Assembly: GCA_027943245.1 (NCBI GenBank)
Contig: JANDJZ010001746.1
Span: forward strand, 248,001 to 312,000
From: Acanthamoeba sp. SK_2022b
Taxonomy: Eukaryota; Discosea; Longamoebia; Acanthamoebidae
Length of the DNA stretch: 64,000 nt
Direction: 5' to 3'
Shown: positions 29,325 through 48,343 of the stretch, in pieces
Layout of the letters: each line of letters starts with the position of its first letter
Position numbering within the stretch: the first letter of the stretch is position 1
Translations under genes and position numbers: made by a program
Notes under the pieces: model-generated
What the model saw: the letters and a program-made list of their open reading frames with translations, nothing else
The model's database searches: none
What the model was told of the DNA's origin: nothing

Positions 29325-29555
29325 TCTCACAATGAGAATAACTAGGCGGGATCTCGTCCTTTGCTAAACAGCGCATCGAGTTTGGTACAAACATCAGATG
29401 GGAAGATGCAGCCCGGCACGTCATTAACGGCCTACTCCAGCACGACTTTAACGCCGAGCTGCTTTTCATGCCTCAGCGCCCAGGGGCACGCCGCACTGGT
29501 TATGCTAGCGGTAAACCTGCCGATAAATCATAACGCCATACCCTTTCATTAAAGG
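29325..29555. other. Spacer with an open frame that may be a gene remnant
   Basis: A + strand frame open from about 29345 to the TAA at 29531-29533 includes EFGTNIRWEDAARHVINGLL and an RRTGYASGKP tail but has no good start or ribosome site. It could be the 3' end of a decayed gene. I do not recognise it. Confidence 0.25.
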
Positions 29556-30239: not shown

Positions 30240-30284
30240 AATCTGCTCCTGTGCTTGCTTAGCCGAAAGGCATTTCGCGCATGC

Positions 30285-30980: not shown

Positions 30981-31031
30981 ATCATCACCTTAAATCTGTC
31001 GTTAGCATTCCACTTAGGACGGTCTTTTTGT

Positions 31032-31559: not shown

Positions 31560-31615
31560 ACTTTATTCCTTCTCGTTAAACGCCGGGCACGGCCCGCTAC
31601 CGTTGAAATATCCGT

Positions 31616-32677: not shown

Positions 32678-32684
32678 ATGTACC

Positions 32685-35234
32685 TTATAAACACTGCCCG
32701 TTAACGAGACGAATCCCACCGCTCTCGAGCTGATTAGCCAATTGATAGTTGACCTGACATTGCTGAGCCGCGTCATTGCCCCACTTCACCCGCAGCTGCC
32801 CACTCTCCGCCAGGCCGGCCAGATAAACCTGGCCACCGTCGCCGACGATGCCGGCATTGTCAGAGGGGCTGTTGAGATTGCTGACGGTGGCGCCGAACGG
32901 CACCGGGTCACCGCTGCGCGTCAGCAAGGTCAGCAACACGCGGGCACCGACGTCCGGATTGAAGCGGGCACGCACCACGGCGCCGCGGGTTGGGATCACC
33001 GTTTGGCTGCTCAGCGTCATGTCGACATCTTCAGCAAAAGATTCACCGTCCAATCCGACGATATTGCGCCGGTAAGGCGTCAGGTAAGGCACGACCGCAT
33101 AGCCGCGCCAATCGGTGCTCACCCCGGTTTGGTTCAGGACATCCACCCCTGACGCGCCGGGCGCCTGCACCAACGCCACCGTATCGCCCAGCGGCTGCGA
33201 CAGCGTGACGCCGTTTTGGTGCACCAGAACGCCCCCCTGTACGCCGTAGTTCACCTGCCGGCGATGGCGATCGTAGCCATACCCCAGGTTCCACTCGGCG
33301 AGGGCGCCTTTGTAGTCCGCCTGAATATTGCCGTTCGCCCCCACGCCCCTGCCGGTATAGCCCTGGTTGATGCTGTAGTTGAGGTTATTGCCCGGCAAGG
33401 CGGTACCGCTCAACCCAAGGTTATTGCTGGTAGCGCCATTGCGGCTGGCGTTCATGCTGTAGGTGGCATAGCTGCCCGGCAGCCATTTGCTGAGCGGTAC
33501 GCTGACGTTGAACGCTACGATATGGTCACGAATACTGCTGCGATTGCCGTTACTGTCGTAGCCGTTCTGGTTGAAGGTGTAATTCAGCCCGTAACTGACG
33601 GCCTCCCAGCTGTTGTTGTAGCTGAGGCTGACAGACTGCGAACGGCGGTTATCGTCCCAGTAGTCTTCGTTAAACAAGCTGAGCGACAACGTTCCCCCCT
33701 GCTCCCACAGGCTTTGGCTCATCGTCAGCTCGGCGCGACTCTTCTTGTGATCGTTATAGATAGCGCTGTTGCCGCCGTAGCTCTCCAGCGCCTCTTGCAG
33801 GTTATAAAAACCGCGCGTGGAATAGCGGTAGCTGGCCAGACTAAAGTTGGTGCCGGTTTCAATGAAGTTCTTGCCGTAACGCAAACGCCATGACTGCCCC
33901 TGCTCCTTCGGCCGGGTTTCCTGCTTGGTCCAGGCCTGGGTGACATCGGCAGACAGCGCGCCCACCGCCCCCAGGTTCTGCCCCCAACCCAGCGCCAGGG
34001 ACTGATACTTACTGGCCGCCTGCACGCCGCCATACAGCGTGGCCCCCCACGGAAGACCGTAGATCCCGGTCGCCTGGCTGAACGGGCGTTCATCAACGCC
34101 ACCGCCGTATGAACGGTATTTCCCGCTGGTCAGGCTGTATTTAAAACGCCCTTCGCGCTGCAATACCGGCACCACGGCGTACGGCACCACAAAATGCTGC
34201 TCCTGGCCGTCAGCCTCACGCACGTTCACATTCAAGTCGCCGCTGCCGCCCGTGGGATACAGATCGGTAATTTCAAATGCCCCCGGCGGCACATAGCTTT
34301 GATAAATCACATAGCCGTTTTGCCGGATTACGATTTGCGCATTAGTACGCGCGATCCCGCGCACCACCGGCGAGTACCCTTTCATGCTGTCCGGCAGGAT
34401 GTCGTCCTCAGAGGCCAATTGCCCCCCACGGAACTGCACGCTATCGAACACATCGCTGGGCGTTGTGCTGTCCCCCAGGGTCAGGCGGCTTTGCAACGCA
34501 ACGATATCGCGCTGCAGGTAGGTGTTGATTGAGCGCCAGGAAGAAGAACCGCCGGTGTAATGGTTCCAGATCGAATAGTTACGCAGGCGCCAGGCGCCCC
34601 AGTTGATGCCCGAGCGCAGATTGAGGTAATAGTTATTGTTGTTTTGCCGTTCGCTGTCGCGCATCTGGTTATTGGCGCCGCTGAAGTTGTAATTGACCAA
34701 CAGCGCCGGTATGCCGGAGTCCCATTTATCCGGGGAAACGTAGTCGCGCGCATTCAAGCGCAGTGCCGCTTGCGGGATGCTCAAATTCAGCCTCAGCTGA
34801 TTGAACAGGAATACCGCAGAGGCCTGTGGAATGGTCTGTGCCAGGTTGACGCAGCTATCCCCGGGCACCATCGCCGGAAACATGGCCACCCTCACGCCCA
34901 GTTCCGCCAATTTTTCCGTGCTGAAACAAGGCTGCAGCGCTTGCTTCCCGTCGGCTCCCGGCATAAGCCGAAACTCGACGTCAAGGCTGTCGATCTGTTC
35001 GCCGTTAAGGTAAAGATCGACCCGGTAGTTCCCGGGCGCCTGGCTGCTGCTCTCCTCAAACACCGAGAGATCGGCGCCGCGCAGCGCCGGATTATCAATT
35101 TCCAGCAGCGCCGGGTTGAAATAATCGCGCGCATGAGCCGTGCCGATCGAGCTCAGCAGCGCCATTTGGCAAGATATCAGGCCGGCCAGAACCGATCGCG
35201 CCCCTGGTAAACCAATGCAATTCGGGTTATTCAT
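32685..35234 (-). CDS. fimD: Outer-membrane fimbrial usher (FimD-like)
   Basis: An 849-residue usher with signal peptide ending ...GTAHA and the mature start RDYFNPALLEIDNPALRGAD. The N-terminal periplasmic domain binds chaperone-subunit complexes; a 24-strand barrel with plug (VFDSVQFRGGQLASEDDILP) and two C-terminal domains follow, closing with QVNYQLANQLESGGIRLV and a final Cys-containing segment. Length is standard. It receives pilins from the adjacent chaperone and assembles the fibre. It lies 106 bp after the chaperone gene, with GGGAG before the ATG. Confidence 0.95.
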   Translation of the reverse strand: MNNPNCIGLPGARSVLAGLISCQMALLSSIGTAHARDYFNPALLEIDNPALRGADLSVFEESSSQAPGNYRVDLYLNGEQIDSLDVEFRLMPGADGKQALQPCFSTEKLAELGVRVAMFPAMVPGDSCVNLAQTIPQASAVFLFNQLRLNLSIPQAALRLNARDYVSPDKWDSGIPALLVNYNFSGANNQMRDSERQNNNNYYLNLRSGINWGAWRLRNYSIWNHYTGGSSSWRSINTYLQRDIVALQSRLTLGDSTTPSDVFDSVQFRGGQLASEDDILPDSMKGYSPVVRGIARTNAQIVIRQNGYVIYQSYVPPGAFEITDLYPTGGSGDLNVNVREADGQEQHFVVPYAVVPVLQREGRFKYSLTSGKYRSYGGGVDERPFSQATGIYGLPWGATLYGGVQAASKYQSLALGWGQNLGAVGALSADVTQAWTKQETRPKEQGQSWRLRYGKNFIETGTNFSLASYRYSTRGFYNLQEALESYGGNSAIYNDHKKSRAELTMSQSLWEQGGTLSLSLFNEDYWDDNRRSQSVSLSYNNSWEAVSYGLNYTFNQNGYDSNGNRSSIRDHIVAFNVSVPLSKWLPGSYATYSMNASRNGATSNNLGLSGTALPGNNLNYSINQGYTGRGVGANGNIQADYKGALAEWNLGYGYDRHRRQVNYGVQGGVLVHQNGVTLSQPLGDTVALVQAPGASGVDVLNQTGVSTDWRGYAVVPYLTPYRRNIVGLDGESFAEDVDMTLSSQTVIPTRGAVVRARFNPDVGARVLLTLLTRSGDPVPFGATVSNLNSPSDNAGIVGDGGQVYLAGLAESGQLRVKWGNDAAQQCQVNYQLANQLESGGIRLVNGQCL

Positions 35235-35340
35235 CCTTTTAACTCCCTGTCCCGATTGGCTCGGCCCGACGAAGAATCAGGTAAGCCGAACGCCTGCTCC
35301 AGCGTTATCCCAGAGCAAAAAAACACGCACCGCGGCCCGG

Positions 35341-36018
35341 TTATAACGTGCTGGTGAAGGTCTGGCCGGTGCCGCCATAGTCGTTGATGATTTGCCAGCT
35401 CAGGCTGCCACCTGCGCCACTTGCCGCCGGCAACGGGAAACTGGCGCTCGCCTGCGGCGCCACCATGGTGTTGCCGGTAATGGCGCGGCCATTCAGCTTC
35501 AAATTGAAAAAGGTGAGGTAGTAGGGAGAAGGGTTGGTCACCTGCAAACGATCGCCGCTGCGCCGCCACGTCACTTTACCGGCCGCCTCTTCCAGATTGC
35601 CGACGAGCCCCTGCGGGCGATAAATCAGCTTGATGCGGGTCTTGATCGCAATTTGCAGCGTGTTCTCTTTCTTTTCCACCGAAGGAATAGCCTTCACATT
35701 CAGCCAATACAGCGACTCTCTGTCCGTCGGTAAATTGCCGCCCGCACGTACCACGCGCAGCAGGTTATTTTGGCCCCCGTCTAAACGAAATAGCGGCGGC
35801 GTGATAATAAAAGGTGCTTTCGCGCTATCGCCCTCTTGCGCATCGACCCAGGATTGGATCAGATAAGGCACCGCATCCGGATTGTTGATATTCAGAGCAG
35901 ACTCTTTTTTACCGCCGTCATAGATGAGGCGCGTTCCACCCACTACCACGCCGGCCTGTACCGGAGCCCAAAGCGTCATCAACAACGCCGCCGTCAGCGC
36001 AAAGTATCCAGCTTTCAT
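35341..36018 (-). CDS. fimC: Periplasmic fimbrial chaperone (FimC/PapD family)
   Basis: A 225-residue PapD-type chaperone with signal peptide MKAGYFALTAALLMTLWAPV. Family features: VVVGGTRLIYDGGKKESALN (G1 donor strand region and conserved Arg), FIITPPLFRLDGGQNNLLRV, YWLNVKAIP and KLIYRPQG. It donates a strand to each pilin until transfer at the usher. The ATG at 36018 was preferred to 36051. An imperfect terminator hairpin lies between it and the pilin gene. Confidence 0.93.
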   Translation of the reverse strand: MKAGYFALTAALLMTLWAPVQAGVVVGGTRLIYDGGKKESALNINNPDAVPYLIQSWVDAQEGDSAKAPFIITPPLFRLDGGQNNLLRVVRAGGNLPTDRESLYWLNVKAIPSVEKKENTLQIAIKTRIKLIYRPQGLVGNLEEAAGKVTWRRSGDRLQVTNPSPYYLTFFNLKLNGRAITGNTMVAPQASASFPLPAASGAGGSLSWQIINDYGGTGQTFTSTL

Positions 36019-36051
36019 CTCTTTCTTCCCGTTCCCATCACCGATGAACAA

Positions 36052-36077
36052 GAGCCAGAGAACACGCCCTCTGGCTC
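36052..36077 (-). terminator. Attenuator-like hairpin between fimA and the chaperone gene
   Basis: GAGCCAGAG and CTCTGGCTC form a perfect 9-bp stem with an 8-nt loop, followed on the reverse strand by TTGTTC rather than a full T-run. Such partial terminators give excess major pilin over assembly proteins. Confidence 0.65.
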
Positions 36078-36114
36078 ATTTTTCTAACTGTTTCGCCGCC
36101 GTGACGGCATAGCC

Positions 36115-36636
36115 TTACTGATAAACGATGGTGAAGTTGGCCGTAGCGTTAGCGCTACCGACGGAAACGTCGTCATAAGCGAAATAGCGCGCGACAAAGC
36201 CCAGGGTGTTGTCTTTGTTCTCTTCCAGCGCATACACGCGGGAATCGTTGCCGATATTGAGCACGTTGCTGCCGTCGTCCAGCAGCTGTACGCCAATACC
36301 GCCCGCGACCCCAGCGGTGCCGGCGCCGGTCAGTTGCAACAGCCCGGACTGCCCCTGCACCTGAGTACCGTCAAAACGCACGGTGGCACCAGTCACAGTT
36401 TGCGGGCAGTTTTTCAGCACCAGGTTGAAGGCTTTGGCGCCGGCGGTTTTAGACAGGGTGAATGCGTCTTTGGCAATCTTACCCAGAGCGACCTGCTTGT
36501 TCTGGGAGTCCGGATCGACGGTGCAAGACTGATCGGTAATGGTGCCAGTGATATTCAGCGCGCCGTCAGCAGCAAATGCAGAGGGGATAAATGCGGACGC
36601 GGTCAATACAGCTACAGCCAACAGATTCTTTTTCAT
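36115..36636 (-). CDS. fimA: Major type-1-like fimbrial subunit FimA
   Basis: A 173-residue pilin: signal peptide (MKKNLLAVAVLTASAFIPSA, cleaved near FA-ADG), then GALNITGTITDQSCTVDPDS with the first conserved Cys, the second in LKNCPQTVTG, and C-terminal NFTIVYQ. It forms the fimbrial rod. The ATG at 36636 after AGGA is chosen; in-frame upstream ATGs would precede the signal peptide. First gene of the operon fimA-chaperone-usher-adhesin-minor pilin-two regulators, and it lies 147 bp from the invertible segment. Confidence 0.93.
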   Translation of the reverse strand: MKKNLLAVAVLTASAFIPSAFAADGALNITGTITDQSCTVDPDSQNKQVALGKIAKDAFTLSKTAGAKAFNLVLKNCPQTVTGATVRFDGTQVQGQSGLLQLTGAGTAGVAGGIGVQLLDDGSNVLNIGNDSRVYALEENKDNTLGFVARYFAYDDVSVGSANATANFTIVYQ

Positions 36637-36783
36637 CCTACTTTCCTTAAAATTATGCAAAATATGCATGGGGTTTATTTCCGACATATCCTTAATGTCA
36701 TTCCTTTTATTTAGTTCCATGAATGTGAAGGGCCGTAGCCAGACTGATTAATGGCTTCTGGCTTATTCACCCAAACGATTCAT

Positions 36784-37084
36784 TTTGAACTAAAGTGACT
36801 CCTTTGGTTTTTAAAACCAATAAAAACCCATTTGACAGGATTTAAAACCAGCTGAGTAACAAAGTGATATTAAATCAGACTAAAAAACCAAGGCGTAAAC
36901 TCAATGATTTAAATCCGCGGATTTTTGATTAGGATTTTGCTTAGATGGAGAGGAGATAGGGGATACGAGGAAAAATCACAACACACTGTTTTCAAAAAGA
37001 ATTAAGCTTTAAGCAGGAAAGAGGGCATGGGAATATTGACATTGTTTTTACGCGTCCTTACAGTATGTTTCAGTTTAGTTCAAA
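36784..37084. repeat. Candidate fim switch: 301-bp segment with 11-bp terminal inverted repeats
   Basis: TTTGAACTAAA at 36784-36794 is repeated as its exact reverse complement TTTAGTTCAAA at 37074-37084. Each repeat is flanked inside and outside by a half-site fitting AAANTGANNC in inverted pairs: 36786-36776 (-), 36792-36802 (+), 37076-37066 (-) and 37082-37092 (+), with a 5-bp centre GAACT/AGTTC. This is the layout of a tyrosine-recombinase target. Length is close to the 314-bp E. coli fimS, and it lies between a FimB-type gene and fimA, as fimS does. Inversion itself is inferred. Confidence 0.82.
37036..37064 (+). promoter_or_regulatory. Strong sigma-70-like promoter inside the switch, pointing away from fimA
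   Basis: TTGACA at 37036-37041, a 17-bp spacer and TACAGT at 37059-37064. Start would be near 37071, just inside the right repeat, so transcripts leave the segment into the 3' end of the recombinase gene in antisense. A weaker match faces fimA (CTGTCA at 36838-36833, 17 bp, TTTAAA at 36815-36810 on the reverse strand). Confidence 0.65.
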
Positions 37085-37117
37085 GTGACTCCTTATCGTT
37101 ATTAACTTAAATCACAC

Positions 37118-37666
37118 TTACCAAATTTCCTTAAAGCGCTGTGCATTGCTGGCGGTATAAATCACCGTATTCTGGATATTTCGGTGCCCGAGGTAATCCT
37201 GAATTAAACGGGTGTCGATACCGCGGTCCGCCAATGCAAATCCGCAGCCATGCCGCAGCATATGTGGATGAGCGTTGACCTCCAATTTGGCCACCTTGCT
37301 GTAATGGCGAATCAACCCGTAAATACGTTGGCGCGACAGACGGCCACCGCGGTTGGACAGGAACAGCCACTCTTGATCGGCCCAGCGGTGCCGTTGACGC
37401 TTATCCAACCAGCGCCGCAGACATTGCCTTTCGCGCAGATAGAGCGGATGGACGGTGGAAAAGCCATTTTTCAACCGATGTACATAGATATTACCGCCTT
37501 CCAGATCGATATCCGATAAGCGCCACCCCCCTATTTCGCTGGCGCGACACCCATGAATAAAACACATATAAATCAAACAATAATCGCGTTCTGGATTCTT
37601 TCCCTGCAGCGTGACCTCAAGCAGTCTCTCCACTTCGGAAGGCGTCAGATGTTTACGATTAGACAT
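37118..37666 (-). CDS. FimB-type tyrosine recombinase next to the switch
   Basis: A 182-residue FimB/FimE-family recombinase with intact R41 (CRASEI), H135 and R138 (HPHMLRH), H161 (GHRNIQ) and Y170 (TVIYTA). HRLKNGFSTVHPL and CGFALADRGIDTRLIQDYL follow E. coli FimB closely. It sits immediately upstream of the invertible segment in the same direction as fimA, the position held by fimE in E. coli. In the present orientation the segment's promoter would produce antisense RNA across its 3' end. Confidence 0.9.
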   Translation of the reverse strand: MSNRKHLTPSEVERLLEVTLQGKNPERDYCLIYMCFIHGCRASEIGGWRLSDIDLEGGNIYVHRLKNGFSTVHPLYLRERQCLRRWLDKRQRHRWADQEWLFLSNRGGRLSRQRIYGLIRHYSKVAKLEVNAHPHMLRHGCGFALADRGIDTRLIQDYLGHRNIQNTVIYTASNAQRFKEIW

Positions 37667-38162: not shown

Positions 38163-38201
38163 AAAAAACCCAGGCCTGACCTCAACAAGCGAGCGCCTGG
38201 G
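38163..38201 (-). terminator. Rho-independent terminator of the peptide/acyl/export operon
   Basis: On the reverse strand CCCAGGC (38201-38195) and GCCTGGG (38175-38169) pair around a 19-nt loop, followed by six T (38168-38163), 10 bp after the ACP stop. It ends the nine-gene operon that begins at 48343. Confidence 0.8.
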
Positions 38202-38210
38202 GGGATGAAA

Positions 38211-38453
38211 TTATTGACGGATTATCACGTGGCACAATTCACCGAGCGTCAACTCAGGGTGTTCGATAAGCATTTCCGCAGTGAGCGTAATGCCGAATTC
38301 TCGCCGAACCACCAGCATCAGCTCCATATAATCCAGGCTGTCCAGCCCAAGCTGTTGCAGCGGCATCTCTGCCGACAGCTGCGCTCTCTCCAGCCCTCTG
38401 GCTTCATACAACATGCCGCAAATCGTCTCATATAACCGATGATACTTTTCCAT
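38211..38453 (-). CDS. Dedicated acyl carrier protein
   Basis: An 80-residue ACP with the phosphopantetheine attachment serine S39 in LQQLGLDSLDYMELML. It is not the housekeeping AcpP: it is more divergent, has Tyr after the DSLD motif and an Arg-rich first helix. It is the last gene of the operon, 11 bp after the ketosynthase, and presumably presents an acyl chain to the ketosynthase and to the acyltransferase-like protein encoded upstream. It needs a PPTase from elsewhere. Confidence 0.9.
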   Translation of the reverse strand: MEKYHRLYETICGMLYEARGLERAQLSAEMPLQQLGLDSLDYMELMLVVRREFGITLTAEMLIEHPELTLGELCHVIIRQ

Positions 38454-38464
38454 AGGCCCTATCG

Positions 38465-39718
38465 CTATTCATTGTGATAACCAAATACCAGCGCCGCATT
38501 GGCGCCGCCGAAACCGAAGCTGAGGCTCATGACATTACGCAGACGGCCATGCCGATGCCCCTCGCGAATATAATCAAGATCGCATTCGGGATCGGTCTCG
38601 TGCAAATGGCAGGTTGCCGGCATCATTTGTTGCTGTAACGCTTGCAGGCAAACGATGGCCTCAAAACTGCCGGATGCGCCAAGCAGATGCCCAGTATAGG
38701 ATTTCGTGCTGGAAATCGGCGTGCGGTAAGCATCACGCCCCAGAGCCGCCTTGATCGCCTCGGTTTCGCTCACATCGTTTTGCCGCGTAGAGGTGCCATG
38801 CGCATTGATATAGTCGATTTTATGACTGTCGAGCTGCGCCTGCTCTAAAGCCCGTCGTATGGTTTTCACTTTCGCCTGCTGATCCTCCGCCGGGGCGGTA
38901 AGATCGAAAGCGTCTGAAAAATTGCCGTACCCTTTGATCTCCCCCAGGATCGTCGCACCACGCGCTAAAGCCGCTTCCCGTTCCTCAAGGCATAACACGG
39001 CGGCCCCCTCCGCCAGGACGAAACCGTTGCGATCCCGGCTGAACGGGCAGCTGGCTTTGGTGATATCTTTCTGCTCCCGGCTCAACAAACGCAACGCATC
39101 CATATTCCAGATCGCACCGTTGCCGCTCAACGATTCCGACGCGCCGGCCAGCATCATTGCGGCGCGGCCGCTGCGAATCACTTCAAACGCATCGCCAATC
39201 GCGATGCCGCCGGTCGCACAGGCCGCCGCCGGCGAGCCTTGATAACCCCGTAGCAGCCAATGCTGGCCGCATATGGCGGTCGCGATATTGGGCATCGCGT
39301 GAAAACAGCCAAACAACTGCCCCAATCCGGATTGCAGATAGTCCGCATTGTTTTGCATGATCTCATCCTGCCCTCCCCAGCCGCTGCCGATAATCGCCCC
39401 GCACTCCAACGACGAATAAAAGTGCGCAGGCCCCCTGTAAGAGGATGAAAACGCCATTTCGATCGCCTCTGCGGCGGCGGCAAGCGCCAACCTGGCGAAT
39501 CTGGGTAGCCGGCGACTTACCCGCGCAGCAACGCCCTCCAGCGGCGGTTCAGACTCCAGCAAAGCAAAAAAGCGCGCGTGGATCCCCGCCGCCGATTTAT
39601 CGTGATAGCGATAGGCCAGGCGGCTGGCCATGATAGCCTGCCAGTTTTGCTGCGCGTTGCCGCCCAGCGCGGTGACGGCACCGTAACCGGTGACCACCAC
39701 TCGTCTTATTTTCTCCAT
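38465..39718 (-). CDS. Beta-ketoacyl-ACP synthase (KAS II type)
   Basis: A 417-residue thiolase-fold condensing enzyme resembling FabF. The catalytic triad is complete: C167 (PAAACATGGIAIGDA), H307 (YINAHGTSTRQNDVSE) and H344 (STKSYTGHLLGASG), with the C-terminal SLSFGFGGANAALVF glycine block. It should catalyse real condensation and not act as a chain-length factor. No ketoreductase, dehydratase or enoyl reductase is encoded nearby, so it either extends with host FAS enzymes or leaves a beta-keto group. It lies 2 bp after the outer-membrane gene. Confidence 0.92.
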   Translation of the reverse strand: MEKIRRVVVTGYGAVTALGGNAQQNWQAIMASRLAYRYHDKSAAGIHARFFALLESEPPLEGVAARVSRRLPRFARLALAAAAEAIEMAFSSSYRGPAHFYSSLECGAIIGSGWGGQDEIMQNNADYLQSGLGQLFGCFHAMPNIATAICGQHWLLRGYQGSPAAACATGGIAIGDAFEVIRSGRAAMMLAGASESLSGNGAIWNMDALRLLSREQKDITKASCPFSRDRNGFVLAEGAAVLCLEEREAALARGATILGEIKGYGNFSDAFDLTAPAEDQQAKVKTIRRALEQAQLDSHKIDYINAHGTSTRQNDVSETEAIKAALGRDAYRTPISSTKSYTGHLLGASGSFEAIVCLQALQQQMMPATCHLHETDPECDLDYIREGHRHGRLRNVMSLSFGFGGANAALVFGYHNE

Positions 39719-39720
39719 GC

Positions 39721-41100
39721 TTATTCTCCTTGCCCCGATGCGAAAGCCTCGTTGCCGCCCAGCGCCAGCCAGAGCTGCATCGTGGCGTTCAGGTAGCGGT
39801 ATTGCAGCGCCGACAGCGAATTTTCGCTGGTCAACACCGCCTCTTGCGCATCCAGCAGCGTTTGCAGCGCGACGGAACCGGCCTGATATTGATGCCGCGC
39901 CAACGCCACGACTTGCCGGCTCATCGCCAGATGCCGCCGCTGGTTGCCGATTTGCCGCTGTGCTTCCAGGCGTTGTCGCATGGCATTGTCCACATCGGCC
40001 AGCGCGCGGTAGACCGCATCGCGAAATTGAATCTCCGCCCGCTGCGCCTGCAACGCCGCTTTGTCACTGGACAAGCGCATCTTGCGCCATTCGATAAACG
40101 GCAGCGTCAACGTGGCCCCCAGCGAACGCGAAGGTTCACTGAACCACTGGCGGAAAAGCCCACTGCCGGCATCCAACCCGGCTTCCAGGCTCAGCGTCGG
40201 ATAAAAACTCAACCTGGCCGCCTCGGCACCGGCCAGCGCCGCTCTCAGGCGGCGCTCTGCCGCCTGAACATCCGGCCTGCGTGCAATCACCGCCGCCGGC
40301 AGGCGCTGCGCGATAGCCACCTCTTCAAGCGGCAACGAACGCCGTTCGCTATAGCGCAGCAGCGGCGATCGCCCAAACAATAACGCCAGCGAGTTACGCG
40401 CGTCTTCCCGCTGCCGCTCCAGCTCATGCAGCTGATTCTCTCTCGCCAACAGGTTCTGTTCCGCCTGCAACAGCTCGAATCGGCCAACGTCGCCCGCGGT
40501 GTGACGTGCCGCCACCAGCCGCAAAGTTTCACGCGCGATCGTCACCATCCGTTGCTGATGGATAACTTGCTGATTCAAATCGGCAATCTGCCAATACCCG
40601 CGCGCGGTAGCCCCTATCAAGGTCAACGCGGTATTGCGCCGGTCCAACGCCGAGGCGACGGCCTGCCATTCTGCCTGTTCGCGAATGCGCGCCAGCTTGC
40701 CCCATAAATCCAGTTCATAGCTCAGAGAAAGCCCTGCACGGTAGCTTTCCTGCGGCGTAGTCGTGCCCCGCAGCGCTCGGGTATTGCGGCCACTCAGGCT
40801 GGCGGCCAGATCCGGCGTCAAATTGCCCTGCGCTAATCCGGCCTCCAACATGGCCTCACGCCACTGCAATCCGGCCAGCGCCAGATCCTGATTCGCAATC
40901 AGCACGCCGTCGATCAGCGCCGACAGTTGCGGATCGTTGAAGTTTTCCCACCAGGCGATGCCCGCGCGCAGTGAACCGGAGCGCTCATCGACCACGCGCC
41001 ACTGCGGCGGCAACGACGGTGGCGCCGTGGCGTCGATCGGCCGCCATCCGCAGGCGCTCAGCGACAGCATCACCAGCCCGCAAACCCAAAGTCGGCTCAT
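39721..41100 (-). CDS. TolC/NodT-family outer-membrane efflux lipoprotein
   Basis: A 459-residue outer-membrane factor with a lipoprotein signal (VMLSLSAC, Cys17), as in the CusC/OprM/NodT branch. The internal duplication typical of TolC-fold proteins is visible: SLSYELDLWGKLARIREQAE, AEQNLLARENQLHELERQRE and ARRPDVQAAERRLRAALAGA (RPDVxxAE motif), then LDAQEAVLTSENSLSALQYR near the end. Its start overlaps the macB-like stop by 4 bp (ATGA). It forms the trans-envelope duct for MacAB and possibly also for the C39 exporter. Confidence 0.92.
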   Translation of the reverse strand: MSRLWVCGLVMLSLSACGWRPIDATAPPSLPPQWRVVDERSGSLRAGIAWWENFNDPQLSALIDGVLIANQDLALAGLQWREAMLEAGLAQGNLTPDLAASLSGRNTRALRGTTTPQESYRAGLSLSYELDLWGKLARIREQAEWQAVASALDRRNTALTLIGATARGYWQIADLNQQVIHQQRMVTIARETLRLVAARHTAGDVGRFELLQAEQNLLARENQLHELERQREDARNSLALLFGRSPLLRYSERRSLPLEEVAIAQRLPAAVIARRPDVQAAERRLRAALAGAEAARLSFYPTLSLEAGLDAGSGLFRQWFSEPSRSLGATLTLPFIEWRKMRLSSDKAALQAQRAEIQFRDAVYRALADVDNAMRQRLEAQRQIGNQRRHLAMSRQVVALARHQYQAGSVALQTLLDAQEAVLTSENSLSALQYRYLNATMQLWLALGGNEAFASGQGE

Positions 41101-43055
41101 TCTCGCGCCAGCGCCTCCACCGGCTGCAGGCGCGCGGCGGTGCGGGCGGGAAAGAACCCGAACCCGACACCGATCAACGCCGAGAATCCGCAGGCCAGCA
41201 ACAGCGGCGGCCAGGTAAAGATCATCGTCACCTGCGGCGCCAATCCGCTCAGAGCCCCTTTAACCAACGCGGCGCAGGCGATCCCCAACACGCCCCCCAG
41301 GCTGCAGATCACCACCGCCTCGATCAGAAACTGCCGCATAATGTCTCTCTCAGCAGCGCCCACCGCCAATCGAATGCCGATCTCATGGGTCCGTTCCGTC
41401 ACCGAAACCAGCATGATGTTCATTACCCCCACACCGCCCACCAGCAGCGAGATGGCGGCAATCGCGGTAATCAGCAGCTGCATGGAGTCTGAGGCGCGCT
41501 GAATGGATTGCGTCAGCTGATCGTCGGTCAGGGTGAAGAAATCCCGCCGCCCGTGTTCTACGATCAAACGCCGGGTCGCATCCCGCCCCGCCTCTTCCAG
41601 CGTCAGTTTTTCATTCACTCGCATCACAATGGATTCCAGCGGCATATCGCCGGCGATGCGGCCGGTGAGGGAGGTATAGGGCAGCCAGGCAAGCGGTTGA
41701 GAGCCGGCGTATTGAGCGCCGCGACGCTGCGCGACGCCAATCACCCGATAAGGCACGCCCGCTATCAGCAATACCGCGCCTACCGGGTCTTGCCGGGAAG
41801 AAAACAGCGCCTGCTTTAACAAGGGATCAATCACCGCTACCGGTGCACGCTCACTCAGATCCTGCGCGGTTAACAGGCCGCCGGAAAGCAGGCGAATGCC
41901 CTGCGTGCGGAAATACCCTTCGCCGACGCCCATCACGGCGAGTGGTACCTGTTTGCCTTCGCGAACGGCCAGCAGTTGGGTGCCGATCACCGGCGAGACG
42001 CTGTCGACGTAAGGCAGCTCCGCCAACAATGCAGCATCGCGCGCGCTCAGCGAACGCGCGAAATCAGGGCGCGATTTTTCCCACCCGAGGCCAGGGCGAA
42101 TCTCCAACGTGCTGGTGCCAAGCTGGCTGATTTCCTTGAGAATATTACGCCGTGTGCCTTCTCCGATGGCGATGGCGGAGACCACCGCCGCAATGCCGAT
42201 AATGATGCCGAGCATCGACAACACGGCCCGGACCCGATGCCCCAGCAATGCCCGCCAGGCCATGCCGACAGCCTCTTTCAGCGCCACACCCGGTGCCATG
42301 CGCTTCAGGGGGGCCACCGGCGATAGCGGCCGTTCGAACGTAGCAGGCTGTCGGGAGGCCTCATGGCGACGATCCGCCACGATCTCGCCGTCGCCGATCT
42401 CAATGATCCGCCGTGCCTGCTCGGCGATCCGCCGATCGTGCGTCACGATAACGACGGTGTGCCCGACCGCGTTCAGCTCGTGCAAAATGGCCATCAACGC
42501 CTGACCGCTGGCGCTATCCAGCGCGCCGGTCGGTTCATCGGCCAAAATGATTTCCGCACCGTTCATCAGGGCACGGGCAATACTGACCCGCTGCTGTTGC
42601 CCACCGGAAAGCTGCGCCGGGCGATGACCGCCGCGCTGCGCCAACCCTAGCCGAGCCAACAAATACGCTGCCCGCTGGCGGCGCTCTGCGGCCGGCATGG
42701 CGGTATACAACGCCGGGATCGCCACATTCTCGCCGGCGGTCAGATAGGGCATCAGATGATAGCGCTGGAAGATAAAGCCGATATGCCGGCTGCGAAGCTG
42801 CGCCAGGCGATCGCCGTCGGCTTGCCCAATAGCCACCCCGTTGATGTACACATTGCCCTGAGAAGGCTTGTCCAGACAGCCGATGATGTTCATCAGCGTC
42901 GATTTTCCAGAACCGGAGGCGCCGACGATAGCGACCAATTCCCCCCGCTGAATGCTCAGGGATACGCGCTTGAGGACCGCAATTTTCTGCTCCCCGGCCT
43001 GAAACTCGCGCGAGACGTTTTCCAACGCAATAATGGGCTCGGCGTTAGCTGACAT
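41097..43055 (-). CDS. MacB-type ABC transporter (ATPase plus permease)
   Basis: A 652-residue MacB-like protein. The N-terminal ATPase has Walker [10 protein letters not shown], signature [15 protein letters not shown], Walker [12 protein letters not shown]. Residue ~270 onward has a transmembrane helix ([20 protein letters not shown]), a large periplasmic MacB domain and three C-terminal helices ([20 protein letters not shown]). MacB proteins act as mechanotransmitters that expel periplasmic substrates, including heat-stable enterotoxin II and acylated siderophores, via TolC. I chose ATG 43055 after GGAGGAAGG; it overlaps the adaptor gene by 11 bp. Confidence 0.93.
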
Positions 43056-44232
43056 GGCCTTCCTCCGCATCAGGCTGCTGATCCAGCAGCACCCGTTCCC
43101 CTGCGCTCAGCCCTTCCAGCACTTCGGCATAGCGACGATCGCGGGTACCGATACGCACTCGGCGTACCACGGTCTGCTCGCCATCCAACACCTTGACCTG
43201 GTAATCCCCTTCATCTAATGCCTCGCCCAGCGCAGCCATCGGCACCCGCACCACGCCCTGCGCGCGTTCGGTAATGATAAATACCTGTGCCGTCATCGAG
43301 GTGCGCAGTCGGCGTTCGTCGTTGGCGACGGCAAACACGCCGTTGTAATACACCGCCGCCGTTTGCTGGCTTGAATTCCTGCCCAGCGGGTCGGTTTCCA
43401 GCGCCTCCGCCGGCGCCTGCTGTATCGCACCCATGGCCCCCTCATATCGGCGGCTGGGATCGGCGGCGACGTAAAACCACAGCGGCTGCCCCGTCTTCAC
43501 CTGCAAGATGTCATTTTCCGATATGCGGGTGTGCACCATCATGGTATCCACGTCTGCCATCACCAAAATGGTCGGCGCGCTTTGCGACGAGACGATGGTC
43601 TGCCCTTCCTGGGTGACAATGCCCAGCACCTCGCCGTCGATAGGGGCGGTAATACGGGTAAAAGCCAGATTGGCCCTCGCGGTTTCCTGCGCCACTTCGG
43701 CCTGGACGATCTGCGACTCGTTCACTTTCAGCTGCGCCAGTTGCGCGTCGCGCTGCGCCTGCGCTTTTTCCAAATCGCTGGCCACGCCGGCGCGGTCACG
43801 CGCCAGCGCCCTTTGCCGCGTCAGTTCCAGCTGGTACTGCTTCAGCTGCGCCTGGCTCGCCAGTTTCTGTGCCTGTGCGCTGCGTAATTCGGCCTGTGAC
43901 TTGCGCAGCTCGTTAAGCTGCAGCGTCGGATCTATCTCGGCCAACAGCTGCCCCTGGGTCACCCTGTCCCCCTGTTTGACATACAGTTTTTTCAACTGCC
44001 CGTTGACCTGTGCGCCAACGTTCACCTGCCGGATCGGTTTTAGAATACCGGTCGCCAACACGCTTTTTTCGATGTCCCCGCGCTCGACGCGCGCCGTTTG
44101 CGGTGGTTGCATGTCAGGAGACCGATTCAGCAACGACAGCCCGCCAACCATCGCCACCAAAACGCACAGCGCCAGCGCCACTCGCCGCCAGCGTCTCTTC
44201 CCGGACTCGTCACTCCACCGCAGCACAATCAT
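43045..44232 (-). CDS. MacA-like periplasmic adaptor protein
   Basis: A 395-residue membrane fusion protein of the MacA/HlyD type. An N-terminal membrane anchor (VALALCVLVAMVGGLSLL) is followed by a barrel-sandwich hybrid (GAQVNGQLKKLYVKQGDRV), an alpha-hairpin rich in Gln/Ala/Leu (about residues 105-185), and beta-barrel and membrane-proximal domains. ATVLGIVTQEGQTIVSSQS-type sequence and KVLDGEQTVVRRVRIGTRDR are as in MacA. It overlaps the end of the C39 exporter gene by 23 bp and the macB-like gene, so the three are tightly coupled. It may serve both ABC proteins. Confidence 0.92.
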   Translation of the reverse strand: MIVLRWSDESGKRRWRRVALALCVLVAMVGGLSLLNRSPDMQPPQTARVERGDIEKSVLATGILKPIRQVNVGAQVNGQLKKLYVKQGDRVTQGQLLAEIDPTLQLNELRKSQAELRSAQAQKLASQAQLKQYQLELTRQRALARDRAGVASDLEKAQAQRDAQLAQLKVNESQIVQAEVAQETARANLAFTRITAPIDGEVLGIVTQEGQTIVSSQSAPTILVMADVDTMMVHTRISENDILQVKTGQPLWFYVAADPSRRYEGAMGAIQQAPAEALETDPLGRNSSQQTAAVYYNGVFAVANDERRLRTSMTAQVFIITERAQGVVRVPMAALGEALDEGDYQVKVLDGEQTVVRRVRIGTRDRRYAEVLEGLSAGERVLLDQQPDAEEGHVS

Positions 44233-46333
44233 TCATCCTCACGTCATGGGGGAATTCAGGCACCAACCGCCCCTGAGACATGCGCAAGACCCGATCGAAC
44301 AACGGCAACAGCCGCGGATTATGGGTGACCGTCACCAGGGTTTTACGATTTTCACGGCAATGCGCCACCAGAGCCGACATCACCGTCGCCGCGGTCTTTT
44401 CATCCAGATTCGCCGTCGGCTCGTCCAGCACCAACACCGGGCAACGGCTGTACATGGCGCGCGCCAGCAACAGACGCTGGCGTTGCCCCAGCGACAGCCC
44501 GGCATGGCTCTCCCGCACCAGGGCATTCACGCCCCCCGGCAGCTGCGCCACCGCGTCCGCCAACCCCAGGCTGCGCAGCGCCTGCTCCACCTGCCGTTGC
44601 TGGCCCGGCGCCGACGGCGCGAACAGCGTGATGTTCTGCAACACCGAGGCATTGAACAGAATGTCCTCCTGGCTTTGCAGGAAAAACAGCCGCTGCGCGG
44701 CGGCGCTTGCCAGTACGCGTCCATCCAGCGCCAGCGCCCCCTGCTGCGGCGTCAGCAGGCAGGCGAGCACCTTCAGCAACGTGCTTTTACCCGCGCCGGA
44801 ACCGCCGCAAATGGCAATACACTCTCCCCGTTCCAGCGTCAGAGACAAATCGCGCAACACCGGTTGGCCGGCGTCGTAAGCGAAGGTCACCCCCCGATAC
44901 GCCAGCCGCGCGTCAAAATGGCTCACGCTTTCGTCCTCAGACGGTGCCCGAACGGATACCGCAGGAAACAGGTCCCGCGCGCGTTCATCGATGACGTGCA
45001 GCTGGTTTTTCTGCAAAACGGCGAAAAAGATCTTGCTGCTGTACGAGGTAAAGATTTCGCGCAGAAAGCTGTAGGCGAAGAATGCCCCCAGGCTGAGCTC
45101 GCCCTCCTTGAGCAGCGGCAACGCCAGCAGCATGAACAACACCATCTCCAGACTGCCGATCAGCTGGTAAATGCTGCCCTTTATCTGCTCATAGATCTTT
45201 TGCTGCTGCAGGCAGTTGAACAGCGAGCGGGCATGTTCGGCGAACCCTTCCTGCCGCTGGCCGGCCAGGCCGGCGGACTTGATGGTCGAAAACCCCTGGA
45301 TGGTTTCCAGGATGAAGTCATTTTGCACCGCGCCTCGTACCTGCAGCTGCTGGGTGTAATGCCGATCGCGGTAGATGGCCCACACGCTGACCGCCCCCAT
45401 CAGCAGCACGCCGACAACCGGCACCAGTGCCAGCATCGGGCTCAGATACCCCATCACCGCCAGCGCGATGGCCCCAATGATCCAGTCGGTGCGCAGGCCG
45501 TTATCCAGTTCGATTTTCTGGCCGGCGGCCATCTGCCAACTGGTGAAACGGCTGAAGATCTCGCCGGGGGCGCGTTTGCTGAAGAAATTGAGCGAGTTTT
45601 CCAGCAGGCGAGAAAAACCGGCGGCGCCGTGCAACAACACGAAATTTTTGATGAAGCGTTCGGTAAAGATGCGAGCAACCAGCGCCAACGCCGTGGACGC
45701 CACGAACGCCAATAGATAGTAGGCATAGGGGAACGCGACCTCGCCGGCCATGGCGAACACCTGATTGATCGCGCTGGCGACCATCATCGGCATGATGAAC
45801 AGCGTCAGCGAGATAAAAAACGTCATCGCCGCCAGGCGATAAATGCCGGCGATGCCGGCGGTATCCTTCAGGCTTAAGCTGGCGAAAGCGCGCCGGCGGC
45901 CGCTGCGCGGGGCAGGTGCACCAGCCGGTATCTCATCGCGATCCAGCACCAACGCATAACCGCTGATTTCCGCTTTCAGGGCAGCGTACGGCAGCAGTTG
46001 CTGCCCCAATGCCGGATTCATTACGCATACGTACCCCCCCTGGCGATACGCCAGCAACACATAGTGGCCTGCGCCGTAATGCAAAATGGCCGGTAAAGGC
46101 AGCGCCGCCAGATCCTGATGCTCAAACGCCACCGGATAAGCCGGTAGCGCCAGCTCTCCCAAAATGGCGCACAGCGTCGCCAGCGAAGTGCCGTGCTGCG
46201 AAGCGGGATAACGCTCCCGCAGTTCCGTCAACGGTGCGCGAATGCCCTGAGTTTCCGCCAGCATGGCGATACAGGCCAGCCCGCACTCATTGATTTCGCT
46301 CTGCAAGACCGGCGTAGGAAGGATGTTTTCCAT
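44210..46333 (-). CDS. Peptidase-containing ABC exporter (C39 domain) for a double-glycine peptide
   Basis: A 707-residue exporter of the CvaB/ComA/LagD type. Residues 1-125 are a C39 peptidase that cuts double-glycine leaders: Cys17 in QSEINECGLACIAM and His90 in HYGAGHYVLL. The third catalytic position, normally Asp in a DP-x-x-G motif, is Asn106 (MNPALG). Six membrane helices follow (about 150-430), then the ATPase with Walker A GGSGAGKST, signature LSLGQRQRLLLARAM and Walker B VLVLDEPTANLD. It should cleave and export the peptide encoded at 48140-48343. Start at 46333 gives the normal C39 N-terminus. Confidence 0.93.
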   Translation of the reverse strand: MENILPTPVLQSEINECGLACIAMLAETQGIRAPLTELRERYPASQHGTSLATLCAILGELALPAYPVAFEHQDLAALPLPAILHYGAGHYVLLAYRQGGYVCVMNPALGQQLLPYAALKAEISGYALVLDRDEIPAGAPAPRSGRRRAFASLSLKDTAGIAGIYRLAAMTFFISLTLFIMPMMVASAINQVFAMAGEVAFPYAYYLLAFVASTALALVARIFTERFIKNFVLLHGAAGFSRLLENSLNFFSKRAPGEIFSRFTSWQMAAGQKIELDNGLRTDWIIGAIALAVMGYLSPMLALVPVVGVLLMGAVSVWAIYRDRHYTQQLQVRGAVQNDFILETIQGFSTIKSAGLAGQRQEGFAEHARSLFNCLQQQKIYEQIKGSIYQLIGSLEMVLFMLLALPLLKEGELSLGAFFAYSFLREIFTSYSSKIFFAVLQKNQLHVIDERARDLFPAVSVRAPSEDESVSHFDARLAYRGVTFAYDAGQPVLRDLSLTLERGECIAICGGSGAGKSTLLKVLACLLTPQQGALALDGRVLASAAAQRLFFLQSQEDILFNASVLQNITLFAPSAPGQQRQVEQALRSLGLADAVAQLPGGVNALVRESHAGLSLGQRQRLLLARAMYSRCPVLVLDEPTANLDEKTAATVMSALVAHCRENRKTLVTVTHNPRLLPLFDRVLRMSQGRLVPEFPHDVRMNDCAAVE

Positions 46334-46352
46334 ACGTAGTGATATCCCTGAC

Positions 46353-47297
46353 TTATTCGTTGATGAAAAATAAAGAGTGCGAATGCCATAACAGCCAATC
46401 ATCCGCATGCCGCCGGAGGGTTCGCTCGACGATCGCCGGCATGGCGCGGCCGACCCGGTCTGCAGCGACCGGCTCTTCGATGTGAATGCGGATGCCGCGA
46501 TCGAAATAAAGCGAATAGAACACCACCTGAGCCCGTAGCGCCCGGGACAGCCGAACGAGGCCGCTGTGCAAATGCGCCGGCCGGCCGAACAGATGACAGG
46601 CCAGTTTGGCCGCAGCATCCTGATTGCTGTGCAGGGTGTAATCCGGCGTGATGTCCGGGAAGAGGATGATGTTGCGCCGATGTTCCGCCGCTTCCAGCAT
46701 CGCCTGCGATAAGGTGCCGGCGATGTGCCGCGGATCGTCGTGAATAGAGCAATAGTCGAGCTGCTGCCGCCATTCGTCTTCCGGTGCTCGCCGCGCAAAC
46801 GCCTGCACATCGCCGGAAACGATCACCGTGGCTCGTCTGGGATAAACATTCGCACCGACCAGCGTCGCCAACACGTCGGAGACCGTATGCATCGGCGCCA
46901 GCAGCACCGGCACGCCCGCGCGATGCAACGGTTCCACGACCCGATCGAGCTGTGCGGAACAGTGCGCCAAATGCTTCATCAGCGCCGCATTGCGAGCATA
47001 GACCGCCGCGATATCCAGCCACTGCCGCCGCTGCATCAGCCAGGCGAAGTCCAGCTTGCCCTCCCCCAACAGGCTCTGGCGGTTCGCCAGCGCTACCGCA
47101 TGCCGGTGGCGAAAGCGGCGCTGCGGTCTGCTTCCCCCCAACCGCCGGCGCACCTCCAGCCACAGGCGATAATCCACGCGCCGCAGCACAGCACACGTCA
47201 GGCGGTTGCCCATCCCGGCACCCGTTGCCGATAAGCGAGCCATCGCGTCTAGGCCGTTGCGCCAGGCCAAATACCCCCGAACCGCGAGCAGGCGCAT
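46353..47297 (-). CDS. Lipid A/lysophospholipid acyltransferase-like protein
   Basis: A 314-residue protein resembling the LpxL/HtrB acyltransferase group (Lip_A_acyltrans). The acyltransferase block is VLLAPMHTVSDVLATLVGAN with His137 and an acidic residue at Asp141, so spacing is HX3D and not the usual HX4D/E. FPDITPDYTLHSN and RALRAQVVFYSLYF follow in the places of later family blocks. No clear N-terminal membrane anchor. ATG 47297 overlaps the DsbA-like stop (TGATG). With the operon's ACP it could move an acyl chain to the peptide or to a lipid. Confidence 0.68.
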   Translation of the reverse strand: MRLLAVRGYLAWRNGLDAMARLSATGAGMGNRLTCAVLRRVDYRLWLEVRRRLGGSRPQRRFRHRHAVALANRQSLLGEGKLDFAWLMQRRQWLDIAAVYARNAALMKHLAHCSAQLDRVVEPLHRAGVPVLLAPMHTVSDVLATLVGANVYPRRATVIVSGDVQAFARRAPEDEWRQQLDYCSIHDDPRHIAGTLSQAMLEAAEHRRNIILFPDITPDYTLHSNQDAAAKLACHLFGRPAHLHSGLVRLSRALRAQVVFYSLYFDRGIRIHIEEPVAADRVGRAMPAIVERTLRRHADDWLLWHSHSLFFINE

Positions 47298-47962
47298 CAC
47301 GAGCCCAGCGGCTTATCGTGCTGCAATAGCGACAGCAGCTGCTGGCTGAAAGCGGAAAACTCACGATCTTGCAGTGCCAGCCATTTGCGATTGACGATAA
47401 AACTGGGGGTCGCGTTGATCTGGTAATAGCGACTCACTGCCGTCATATACGCCAACAGCTCTTTGACCCGTTCCGACTCTCTGGCCTGCTGATAGGCGGT
47501 CTTATCGATACCGTTGGCCGTCAGCCAGGCGCTGAGCTGCTTGTCGTCCGCCAGGTTGAGGTTTTCTTTGATAATGGCGCGGTAAGCGGCGGGGCGATGT
47601 TGCGCTTCGATCCCCATGATCGTCAGCGTGGCGAACAGGGGCGCAAAGGCCGCCATGCCGGCTTGACTGTCGTCGCTGAGGTGCAAGCGCACCAGTTTGG
47701 CCCCCGCCGGTAAACTTTTTTCCAGCTCGGCCACACCGCTCTCGTTGACTTCACAATAGTGGCAGGCATAAGAGAAGACTTCGACAATGGTATTATCTTC
47801 TTGCAATGGGCTTTGCTCGATTTTTTCCGGGGCGATAAAGCTCAGGCTTTCTGCCTCCGGCGGTTGCATGACGTAATGTTTAAAATAAAAGGCGGTCAGA
47901 AAAGAAGAGGCAAAAACAATGACCAGCGTGTAGCTAATGAAAAGCAAGGGACGTTTATACAT
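47297..47962 (-). CDS. Membrane-anchored DsbA-like thiol:disulfide oxidoreductase
   Basis: A 221-residue thioredoxin-fold protein anchored by an uncleaved helix (LFISYTLVIVFASSFLTAFY, residues 7-28) with the catalytic domain in the periplasm. The active site is CHYC (C67, C70) in EVFSYACHYCEVNESG and the cis-Pro loop is INATPSFIVNRK. A helical insert between the two is as in DsbA. Its place directly after the cysteine-containing peptide gene suggests it forms the peptide's two expected disulfides after export to the periplasm. Confidence 0.88.
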   Translation of the reverse strand: MYKRPLLFISYTLVIVFASSFLTAFYFKHYVMQPPEAESLSFIAPEKIEQSPLQEDNTIVEVFSYACHYCEVNESGVAELEKSLPAGAKLVRLHLSDDSQAGMAAFAPLFATLTIMGIEAQHRPAAYRAIIKENLNLADDKQLSAWLTANGIDKTAYQQARESERVKELLAYMTAVSRYYQINATPSFIVNRKWLALQDREFSAFSQQLLSLLQHDKPLGS

Positions 47963-48074
47963 AACGGACGCATCCTGCGCATATATTAATACCCACCCGA
48001 CAGGGTGAATACATGAAAAAGAGTTAATACCGTAAATAATGAGATCGTAAAGATGACTTTGTCGCCCGGTATCA

Positions 48075-48101
48075 GGCGGGCCAGCGTGAACGCTGCCCGC
48101 C
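48075..48101 (-). terminator. Intercistronic hairpin after the peptide gene
   Basis: GGCGGGC (48075-48081) and GCCCGCC (48095-48101) pair, with AGCGT and ACGCT inside after a one-base bulge: a very stable stem with a 2-4 nt loop. It lies 39 bp after the peptide stop and has no T-run. It probably stabilises the peptide mRNA or partly stops transcription before the maturation genes. Confidence 0.65.
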
Positions 48102-48139
48102 TGCCCACCGCTAATCTAAATGCAGGGGATTAACCCGCC

Positions 48140-48343
48140 TCAGCTTGGCGTGGTTGGGTTAGACGGGCAGCTTGCTACCGGAGCCGGGTGATAAGTCTTT
48201 CTCACACCGCCAAACTTATCGGCGCAGGTGGTGACCAGCTGGCAGGTGCGGTTATTGCCGCTGCCCACCCAGGCAAACTCCTTGGTACAAACAAAAGTAC
48301 CGCCGACGATGTTTCCCGCTTCTGACAGATTGATTTTCTTCAT
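48140..48343 (-). CDS. Double-glycine-leader, four-cysteine secreted peptide (bacteriocin-like)
   Basis: A 67-residue precursor. The leader MKKINLSEAGNIVGG ends in Gly14-Gly15, the C39 cleavage site, leaving a 52-residue core with Cys at core positions 4, 19, 25 and 44, and a Pro/Ser/Thr-rich tail. Four cysteines imply two disulfides. The pattern of leader, cysteines and a PAP-x(2)-SCP end resembles the DUF4762 peptides of Serratia and related genera, as I remember that family. AAGGA precedes the ATG at 48343. First gene of the operon; it is followed by a strong hairpin. Biological activity is inferred from context only. Confidence 0.82.
   Translation of the reverse strand: MKKINLSEAGNIVGGTFVCTKEFAWVGSGNNRTCQLVTTCADKFGGVRKTYHPAPVASCPSNPTTPS

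Follow-up and report, generated by a model that had tools for sequence, protein, structure and literature searches.

A conserved Enterobacterales operon combining a DUF4762 double-glycine peptide with a DsbA-like oxidase, a predicted LpxL-type acyltransferase, two exporters and a fatty-acid-type module

Gene content and layout

The 64,000-nucleotide window analysed here (contig JANDJZ010001746.1, positions 248,001 to 312,000, filed under Acanthamoeba sp. SK_2022b) carries, at 38163..48343, genes for a cysteine-rich double-glycine peptide of the DUF4762 family, a DsbA-like oxidase, a predicted LpxL-type acyltransferase, a C39 peptidase-containing exporter, a MacAB-type export set, a ketosynthase (KS) and an acyl carrier protein (ACP). 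A sequence-only reading of the same DNA had described nine co-oriented genes, and all nine open reading frames (ORFs) are indeed found there on the minus strand, close-packed apart from the 177 bp that separate the peptide gene from the next. Comparison with related genomes demonstrates that the core of this set keeps its order, and we give a probability of about one half to a dedicated system that would make, acylate, fold and export a small peptide. The features are as follows.

48140..48343, minus strand: DUF4762 precursor peptide, 67 aa (PF15959, 34.2 bits, above the curated cut-off of 27; 51-sequence alignment)
47963..48139, minus strand: intergenic stretch of 177 bp with a strong hairpin (fold z-score -3.1)
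47297..47962, minus strand: DsbA-like oxidase with a CHYC motif and, from sequence, an N-terminal hydrophobic anchor (PF01323)
46353..47300, minus strand: predicted LpxL/LpxM/PatA-type acyltransferase, GTG start (fold and PF03279-matching relatives)
44210..46333, minus strand: C39 peptidase-containing ABC exporter (PF03412, PF00664, PF00005)
43045..44232, minus strand: MacA-like periplasmic adaptor (304.7 bits, below the MacA equivalog cut-off of 342)
41097..43070, minus strand: MacB-type ABC pump (PF12704, PF02687, PF00005; 722.8 bits, below the MacB equivalog cut-off of 966)
39721..41100, minus strand: NodT-type outer-membrane factor (OMF) with, from sequence, a lipoprotein signal (TIGR01845, 238.5 bits, cut-off 210)
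38465..39718, minus strand: FabF-type KS with Cys, His, His motifs (family and motif match)
38454..38464, minus strand: KS-ACP junction of 11 bp, where a MaoC-type dehydratase gene sits in other lineages
38211..38453, minus strand: ACP with a DSL serine motif (PF00550 and motif)
~38163..38200, minus strand: stem-loop with a T run after the ACP stop; the ketoreductase gene of relatives is missing at this place

Downstream of the 177-bp gap, the junctions are an overlap of 4 bp (DsbA-LpxL), a gap of 19 bp (LpxL-C39), overlaps of 23 bp (C39-MacA), 26 bp (MacA-MacB, with the longest MacB start) and 4 bp (MacB-OMF), and gaps of 2 bp (OMF-KS) and 11 bp (KS-ACP). The limit of 23 bp that had been given for this part of the operon holds for the gaps but is exceeded by one overlap, MacA-MacB. 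The T-run terminator that had been placed at the end of the operon corresponds to the stem-loop after the ACP gene, but this single match is weak by itself (17 terminator-like sites counted versus 12.2 expected from shuffles). Identity of the nine proteins to their counterparts in Serratia marcescens 106R is 89-99%. The window contig is probably Serratia DNA inside a mixed or eukaryote-sized assembly (44.9 Mb, 1129 contigs).

The export genes had been called a MacAB-TolC set. A MacA-like adaptor, which scores only 53.4 bits against type I HlyD (cut-off 208.65), and a MacB-type pump are present, but the 'TolC' is a NodT-type OMF that passes the NodT cut-off and falls far short of the TolC one. 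The combination of an HlyD/CvaA-type adaptor with TolC, as in class II microcin systems, is not found among the nine genes. The exact motif ECG[LM]AC was detected in 50 of 58 C39 exporters.

The peptide consists of a 15-aa double-glycine leader and a 52-aa core with Cys19, Cys34, Cys40 and Cys59, and with Lys43 within a K-x-G motif. The calculated monoisotopic mass of this core is 5530.63 Da, or 5526.60 Da for a form with two disulfides; a C12, C14 or C16 acyl group would bring it to about 5709, 5737 or 5765 Da. The L006 core is different, so these values do not apply to it. A double-glycine leader and a C39 peptidase, as in class II microcins, are both recognizable by sequence, and a leader for a dedicated protease is likewise a trait of lipidated ribosomally synthesized and post-translationally modified peptides. 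The core positions that never vary across 51 aligned peptides are Cys19, Cys34, Cys40, Lys43 and Gly45; Lys43 (51/51) is the only invariant nucleophile besides cysteine, and no serine or threonine reaches 90%. The core contains a K-x-G at some position in 56/57 peptides. A model of the peptide with a predicted local distance difference test (pLDDT) score of 67 contains strands at 18-26 and 33-41, and the strand register in this weak model would place Cys19 opposite Cys40.

The window acyltransferase gave no Pfam match even at E up to 10, and its LpxL-type assignment is made because of its predicted fold and its PF03279-matching relatives. The fold test predicted an LpxM/PatA fold, with lipid or glycolipid acyltransferases as the closest folds, and the PF03279 cut-off is passed by the relatives P0073 and P0077 and by the protein of locus L073. 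When an acyltransferase profile was compared with PDB sequences, the single match (E 0.5) was unrelated. His138 and Asp142 are invariant in 35/35 sequences, and AP[LM]H-x3-D is found in 56/58. All named relatives of a distant acyltransferase (L064) belong to Enterobacterales (Mangrovibacter, Kosakonia, Serratia). An apparent C39-acyltransferase fusion (P0009) was discarded because a single short contig shows it, apparently through a frame slip.

Conservation and variation in Enterobacterales

Species genomes were scanned by pattern with an acyltransferase alignment, so that loci lacking the acyltransferase could not appear. All 53 loci obtained are from Enterobacterales by title, and LpxL-C39-MacA-MacB-OMF-KS-ACP have the same order and strand in every one of them. 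Independent occurrence of the genes, which by the sequence-only reading would have spoken against it, is not seen for this core set. In a GTDB family sample of 392 genomes, the acyltransferase was found in 47, DUF4762 in 41 and both in 40 (hypergeometric 3e-46, not corrected for kinship), and a distance of 760-1235 bp separates the acyltransferase gene from 46 of the 52 DUF4762 copies. The acyltransferase was also present in 9/394 genomes of a wider sample of the order (likewise not corrected for kinship). The conserved order in 53/53 loci and the co-occurrence of DUF4762 with the acyltransferase rule out chance neighbours.

The departures from this co-occurrence are few. DUF4762 is present and the acyltransferase missing in G684, whose contig (L065), however, stops ~120 bp past the peptide. 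Conversely, G004, G005, G623, G637, G640, G656 and G695 have the acyltransferase without a DUF4762 match; a double-glycine peptide was recognized by pattern or eye in G004 and G005 (L040, L043), in G637, G640 and G695 (L063, L064, L067) and in G623 (the Ewingella locus L011, judging from its coordinates), and none was recognized by either means in G656.

The usual operon in relatives has eleven genes, the nine described above plus a MaoC-type dehydratase (DH) and a short-chain dehydrogenase/reductase (SDR) type ketoreductase (KR); the window does hold nine genes, but as a reduced form rather than the full set, with neither DH nor KR. The DH was found in 59/65 loci (queries from L007 and L041) and the KR, after the ACP, in 58/65 (queries from other loci); the KR is missing in L002-L006 and L062, and the L067 stretch ends at the ACP, so that its KR is not assessable. 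PF01575 was detected in all five DH proteins tested, three of them over the curated cut-off, a D-x-N-P-H type motif in 52/52 DH ORFs, and the cofactor and YxxxK motifs in 54 of the 55 KR ORFs recovered. The spacing between KS and ACP matches is 782-900 bp in 48/53 loci and 14-33 bp in L002-L006, which are S. marcescens, S. nevei, S. ureilytica, S. inhibens and S. plymuthica (the S. marcescens clade). No DH was found elsewhere in these five genomes or in the window's assembly, and 5/5 control genomes were positive in the same search. On the operon trees, this looks like one event that removed DH and KR together in the S. marcescens branch. The ratio of nonsynonymous to synonymous substitution rates (dN/dS) against L002-L004 is 0.02-0.28 for all nine genes, which are under purifying selection, and 0.09-0.27 for KS and ACP. 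Decay of the window operon after the loss is not supported, given these KS and ACP values and motifs that are intact in most relatives; the KS motif HG-x-T-x-x-ND is missing in L004.

The presence of DsbA tracks the cysteines of the peptide. When 57 peptides from 55 loci were compared, DsbA was present in the locus with all 52 peptides that have 4-6 core cysteines and missing with all five that have 0-2. L040 and L043 lack Cys1, Cys3 and DsbA, and L076, with a two-cysteine peptide and no annotated DsbA, fits the link. DsbA was found in 49/53 loci (L032, one of the other four, starts at a contig edge), and CxxC is present in 49 of the 50 DsbA ORFs recovered.

Other variants show that the acyltransferase and exporter are a fixed core from which KS/ACP, KR/DH and DsbA are separable. 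L062 contains the peptide, acyltransferase, C39 exporter, MacA and MacB only, with no KS or ACP in the 16 kb fetched. In L063, L064 and plasmid pE41 (L076), MacB-OMF-KS-DH-ACP-KR-LpxL-C39 lie in a row with two-cysteine peptides and no DsbA found; MacA stands ahead of MacB in L063 and L064, and a gene of unannotated function does so in L076. F-type plasmids of Escherichia coli carry DsbA-LpxL-C39-MacA-MacB-OMF-KS-DH-ACP-KR, and Salmonella copies are similar, with L074 broken in several genes and L080 matching DsbA only in pieces. A relative of the operon was found in 9/5426 E. coli genomes, always on plasmids; a search that detects close DNA only gave no match at near identity to the window operon in E. 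coli. In L073, L078 and L079, the annotation shows remnants of insertion elements upstream of dsbA, the expected place of the peptide gene.

The linkage seen for the core set does not extend to every gene, as plasmid operons without a nearby peptide gene and exporter-less DUF4762 genes both occur. The latter (L068-L072) stand singly or in pairs, with no exporter beside them, in the operon-bearing genomes G410, G538, G454, G705 and G002. By reading, all seven orphan peptides have K-x-G and four core cysteines, and by eye an AraC-like regulator adjoins the genes in three of the five genomes; these peptides are possibly extra substrates in trans.

Predicted pathway and competing explanations

The sequence-only reading had proposed either a fatty-acylated, disulfide-bonded secreted peptide or a peptide with lipid-based immunity. 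Comparative evidence sustains the ground for the former, namely one unit with a cysteine-rich double-glycine peptide, a DsbA tied to its cysteines, an LpxL-type acyltransferase, two exporters and a fatty-acid-type module; for the latter we found no positive evidence and no conserved immunity-type gene in the peptide-DsbA gaps or the 3.5 kb upstream. The sequences themselves show which genes are present, their conserved order, the catalytic motifs, the coupling of DsbA to the cysteines and purifying selection; every chemical step of the following route is inferred. A special acyl chain would be assembled on the ACP by KS and ACP, joined in most relatives by KR and DH. The membrane-bound LpxL/PatA-type enzyme, facing the cytosol, would transfer this chain to the precursor, the side chain of Lys43 being the most likely target. 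A side chain is the likely acceptor because acyl-ACP is cytosolic and the mature N-terminus forms only at export, and Lys43 is favoured because it is the only invariant non-cysteine nucleophile in the alignment. The C39 exporter would then cleave after Gly-Gly and carry the core to the periplasm, where the DsbA-like protein may close two disulfides, most likely Cys19-Cys40 and Cys34-Cys59, before MacA-MacB and the OMF expel the product. In most relatives the chain is likely unsaturated or hydroxylated, because KS, KR and DH come without a dedicated enoyl reductase. In the S. marcescens clade, host fatty-acid enzymes probably substitute for KR and DH, so the chain there may be an ordinary fatty acyl.

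Several observations weigh against this acylated-peptide route. The L062 peptide has no K-x-G, and K-x-G could be a structural turn instead of an acylation site. The peptide model matched no PDB fold at E <= 0.001. The His-x3-Asp of the acyltransferase is one residue shorter than HX4D/E, which we take to be the catalytic motif of the LpxL/PatA family, in a comparison of catalytic residues by sequence only; we know of no precedent for lysine acylation by an enzyme of LpxL fold, known members acylating hydroxyls. The DsbA-cysteine link represents a few clades and a handful of evolutionary events, not 57, and the peptide of Enterobacter mori (L036, 9071-9271) has Trp at the fourth aligned (last conserved) cysteine although DsbA is present. 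Plasmid copies keep DsbA without an adjacent peptide gene: no double-glycine peptide was found upstream in six E. coli and Salmonella copies (L073, L074, L077-L080), nor downstream in the three of them checked there, nor near L066/L075 or L048. The diverged DH of L073 has no Pfam match, yet it matches the DH of other loci. The second Rahnella laticis copy (L048, 25-10804) has upstream what we take to be a very large passenger-autotransporter-like ORF and a SapC-like ORF, with no double-glycine peptide there.

The main rival to an acylated peptide is a separate lipid. Two products could come from one operon, with KS, KR, DH, ACP and the LpxL-type enzyme making a special lipid that MacAB-OMF exports, and the C39-exported peptide helping to anchor or display it. 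Plasmid copies that retain the biosynthetic set without a nearby peptide would fit this, as would the lipid and glycolipid acyltransferases that are the closest folds, and PMC8253772 describes the E. coli aryl polyene (APE) cluster as containing a lysophospholipid acyltransferase together with KS, KR, DH and ACP. However, the acyltransferase of L062 stays with C39 and MacAB though KS and ACP are missing, in the family sample DUF4762 is paired nearly one to one with the acyltransferase, and the glycosyltransferase, thioesterase and Lol-like genes of APE, as given in PMC8253772, are not among the nine of the window; we regard two products as rather unlikely. A class II microcin-like bacteriocin that kills competitors, with lipid genes that modify the peptide or confer immunity through an altered producer envelope, would account for the double-glycine leader, the C39 exporter and the cysteine-rich core, and other class II microcins of S. 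marcescens have proved active when secreted heterologously (PMC13101503). We consider it improbable. The core is conserved among close relatives (peptide dN/dS 0.02-0.10, over 67 codons only), and nothing conserved was found as an immunity gene in the peptide-DsbA gaps and 3.5 kb upstream, where short genes can be missed. By eye, the gaps share no ORF across loci, their small ORFs differing between loci (a 40-aa ORF at 47986-48108 has a counterpart in L002 only, among the loci compared), and the 14 largest upstream ORF clusters are fimbrial-type, LuxR-like or antisense. A bacteriocin is not favoured because no conserved candidate immunity gene was found, and the label microcin is doubtful for this operon.

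The peptide, acylated or oxidised, might instead take part in adhesion or biofilm together with the chaperone-usher fimbriae encoded nearby, which we judge quite improbable. In 28/53 loci the operon is preceded by co-oriented usher and chaperone genes, in the five loci of the S. marcescens clade fimbrial genes follow it, and any fimbrial match is present in 34/53; against this, the stretch examined has no fimbrial match in 19/53 loci, the 27 of 28 usher-linked loci placed on the tree fall in only two clades, and linkage is not function. The window usher is only 28-31% identical to eleven others compared and so looks like a separate juxtaposition. The fimbrial neighbourhood is suggestive only.

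Returning to the acylated-peptide route, we compared it with known systems. Goadvionins, lipolanthines and selidamides are ribosomal peptides that receive a fatty acyl group from a GNAT-type transferase. HlyC-type toxin acylation is ACP-fed and acts on a type I secretion substrate, and PvdE/PvdRT-OpmQ exports pyoverdine in two steps with periplasmic maturation and a MacAB-type pump; the enzymes and substrates of both are unrelated to those of the operon. The nostolysamides are ribosomal peptides that are fatty-acylated on lysine, likewise by a GNAT-type transferase (PMC13060382). Unlike these lipidated ribosomal peptides, the system described here has a predicted LpxL/PatA-fold enzyme, its own type II synthase genes and an Enterobacterales distribution, with acylation as a prediction; unlike LpxL, LpxM and PatA, its acyltransferase has the His-x3-Asp spacing and is embedded in a peptide export operon. 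It shares the double-glycine leader and C39 exporter with class II microcins of MccV-type secretion, and its predicted disulfides with class IIa, but has MacAB-OMF instead of an HlyD/CvaA-type adaptor and its own DsbA, acyltransferase, KS and ACP, with DH and KR in relatives; no conserved immunity gene was found in the gaps and upstream stretches searched. With APE clusters it shares KS, ACP and a lysophospholipid-type acyltransferase, and KR and DH in relatives only; the set of KS, KR, DH, ACP and acyltransferase is thus complete in most relatives and incomplete in the window. PMC8253772 describes APE clusters with aromatic starter activation, several KS and ACP, and Lol-like and RND export, whereas the operon here has a single KS, a single ACP, ABC exporters and a gene for a ribosomal peptide, and no aromatic starter activation, second KS or RND/Lol-type export among the nine genes.

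We tentatively suggest that DUF4762 proteins may be precursors of an undescribed class of lysine-acylated (enoyl, hydroxy or polyene chain), disulfide-bonded peptides secreted by Enterobacterales, with a private DsbA and release through a second, MacAB-type exporter, of which the S. marcescens clade would have a trimmed form without KR and DH. This would assign a function to the Pfam domain DUF4762, bring a new enzyme fold into peptide lipidation and reveal in Gram-negative bacteria a route for a ribosomal lipopeptide that uses two exporters and includes maturation in the periplasm. It would border on a new class if acylation were proven; the parts are otherwise akin to lipidated ribosomal peptides and double-glycine exporters. 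With the acyltransferase in 47/392 sampled family genomes, the product would be widely shared and so far undescribed in the literature searched, and natural variants with or without DsbA, KR/DH and KS/ACP let each step be probed genetically. No description of the full gene set was found in open-licence PMC literature, including the accessible portions of PMC9746304, PMC13174018 and PMC8253772. A 2026 article on S. marcescens microcins (PMC13101503) mentions no such operon in its accessible portion, and its 93 supplementary microcin sequences may include the window peptide.

Neighbouring features of the window

A chaperone-usher fimbrial operon with, by eye, two LuxR-type regulators occupies 28773-37666 of the window and has a FimB/E-like recombinase ORF at either end (28773-29324 and 37118-37666). 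In each of the five loci of the S. marcescens clade, the peptide operon is followed by the second recombinase and fimA. Further away, an OmrA-B small RNA is located at 8163-8255.

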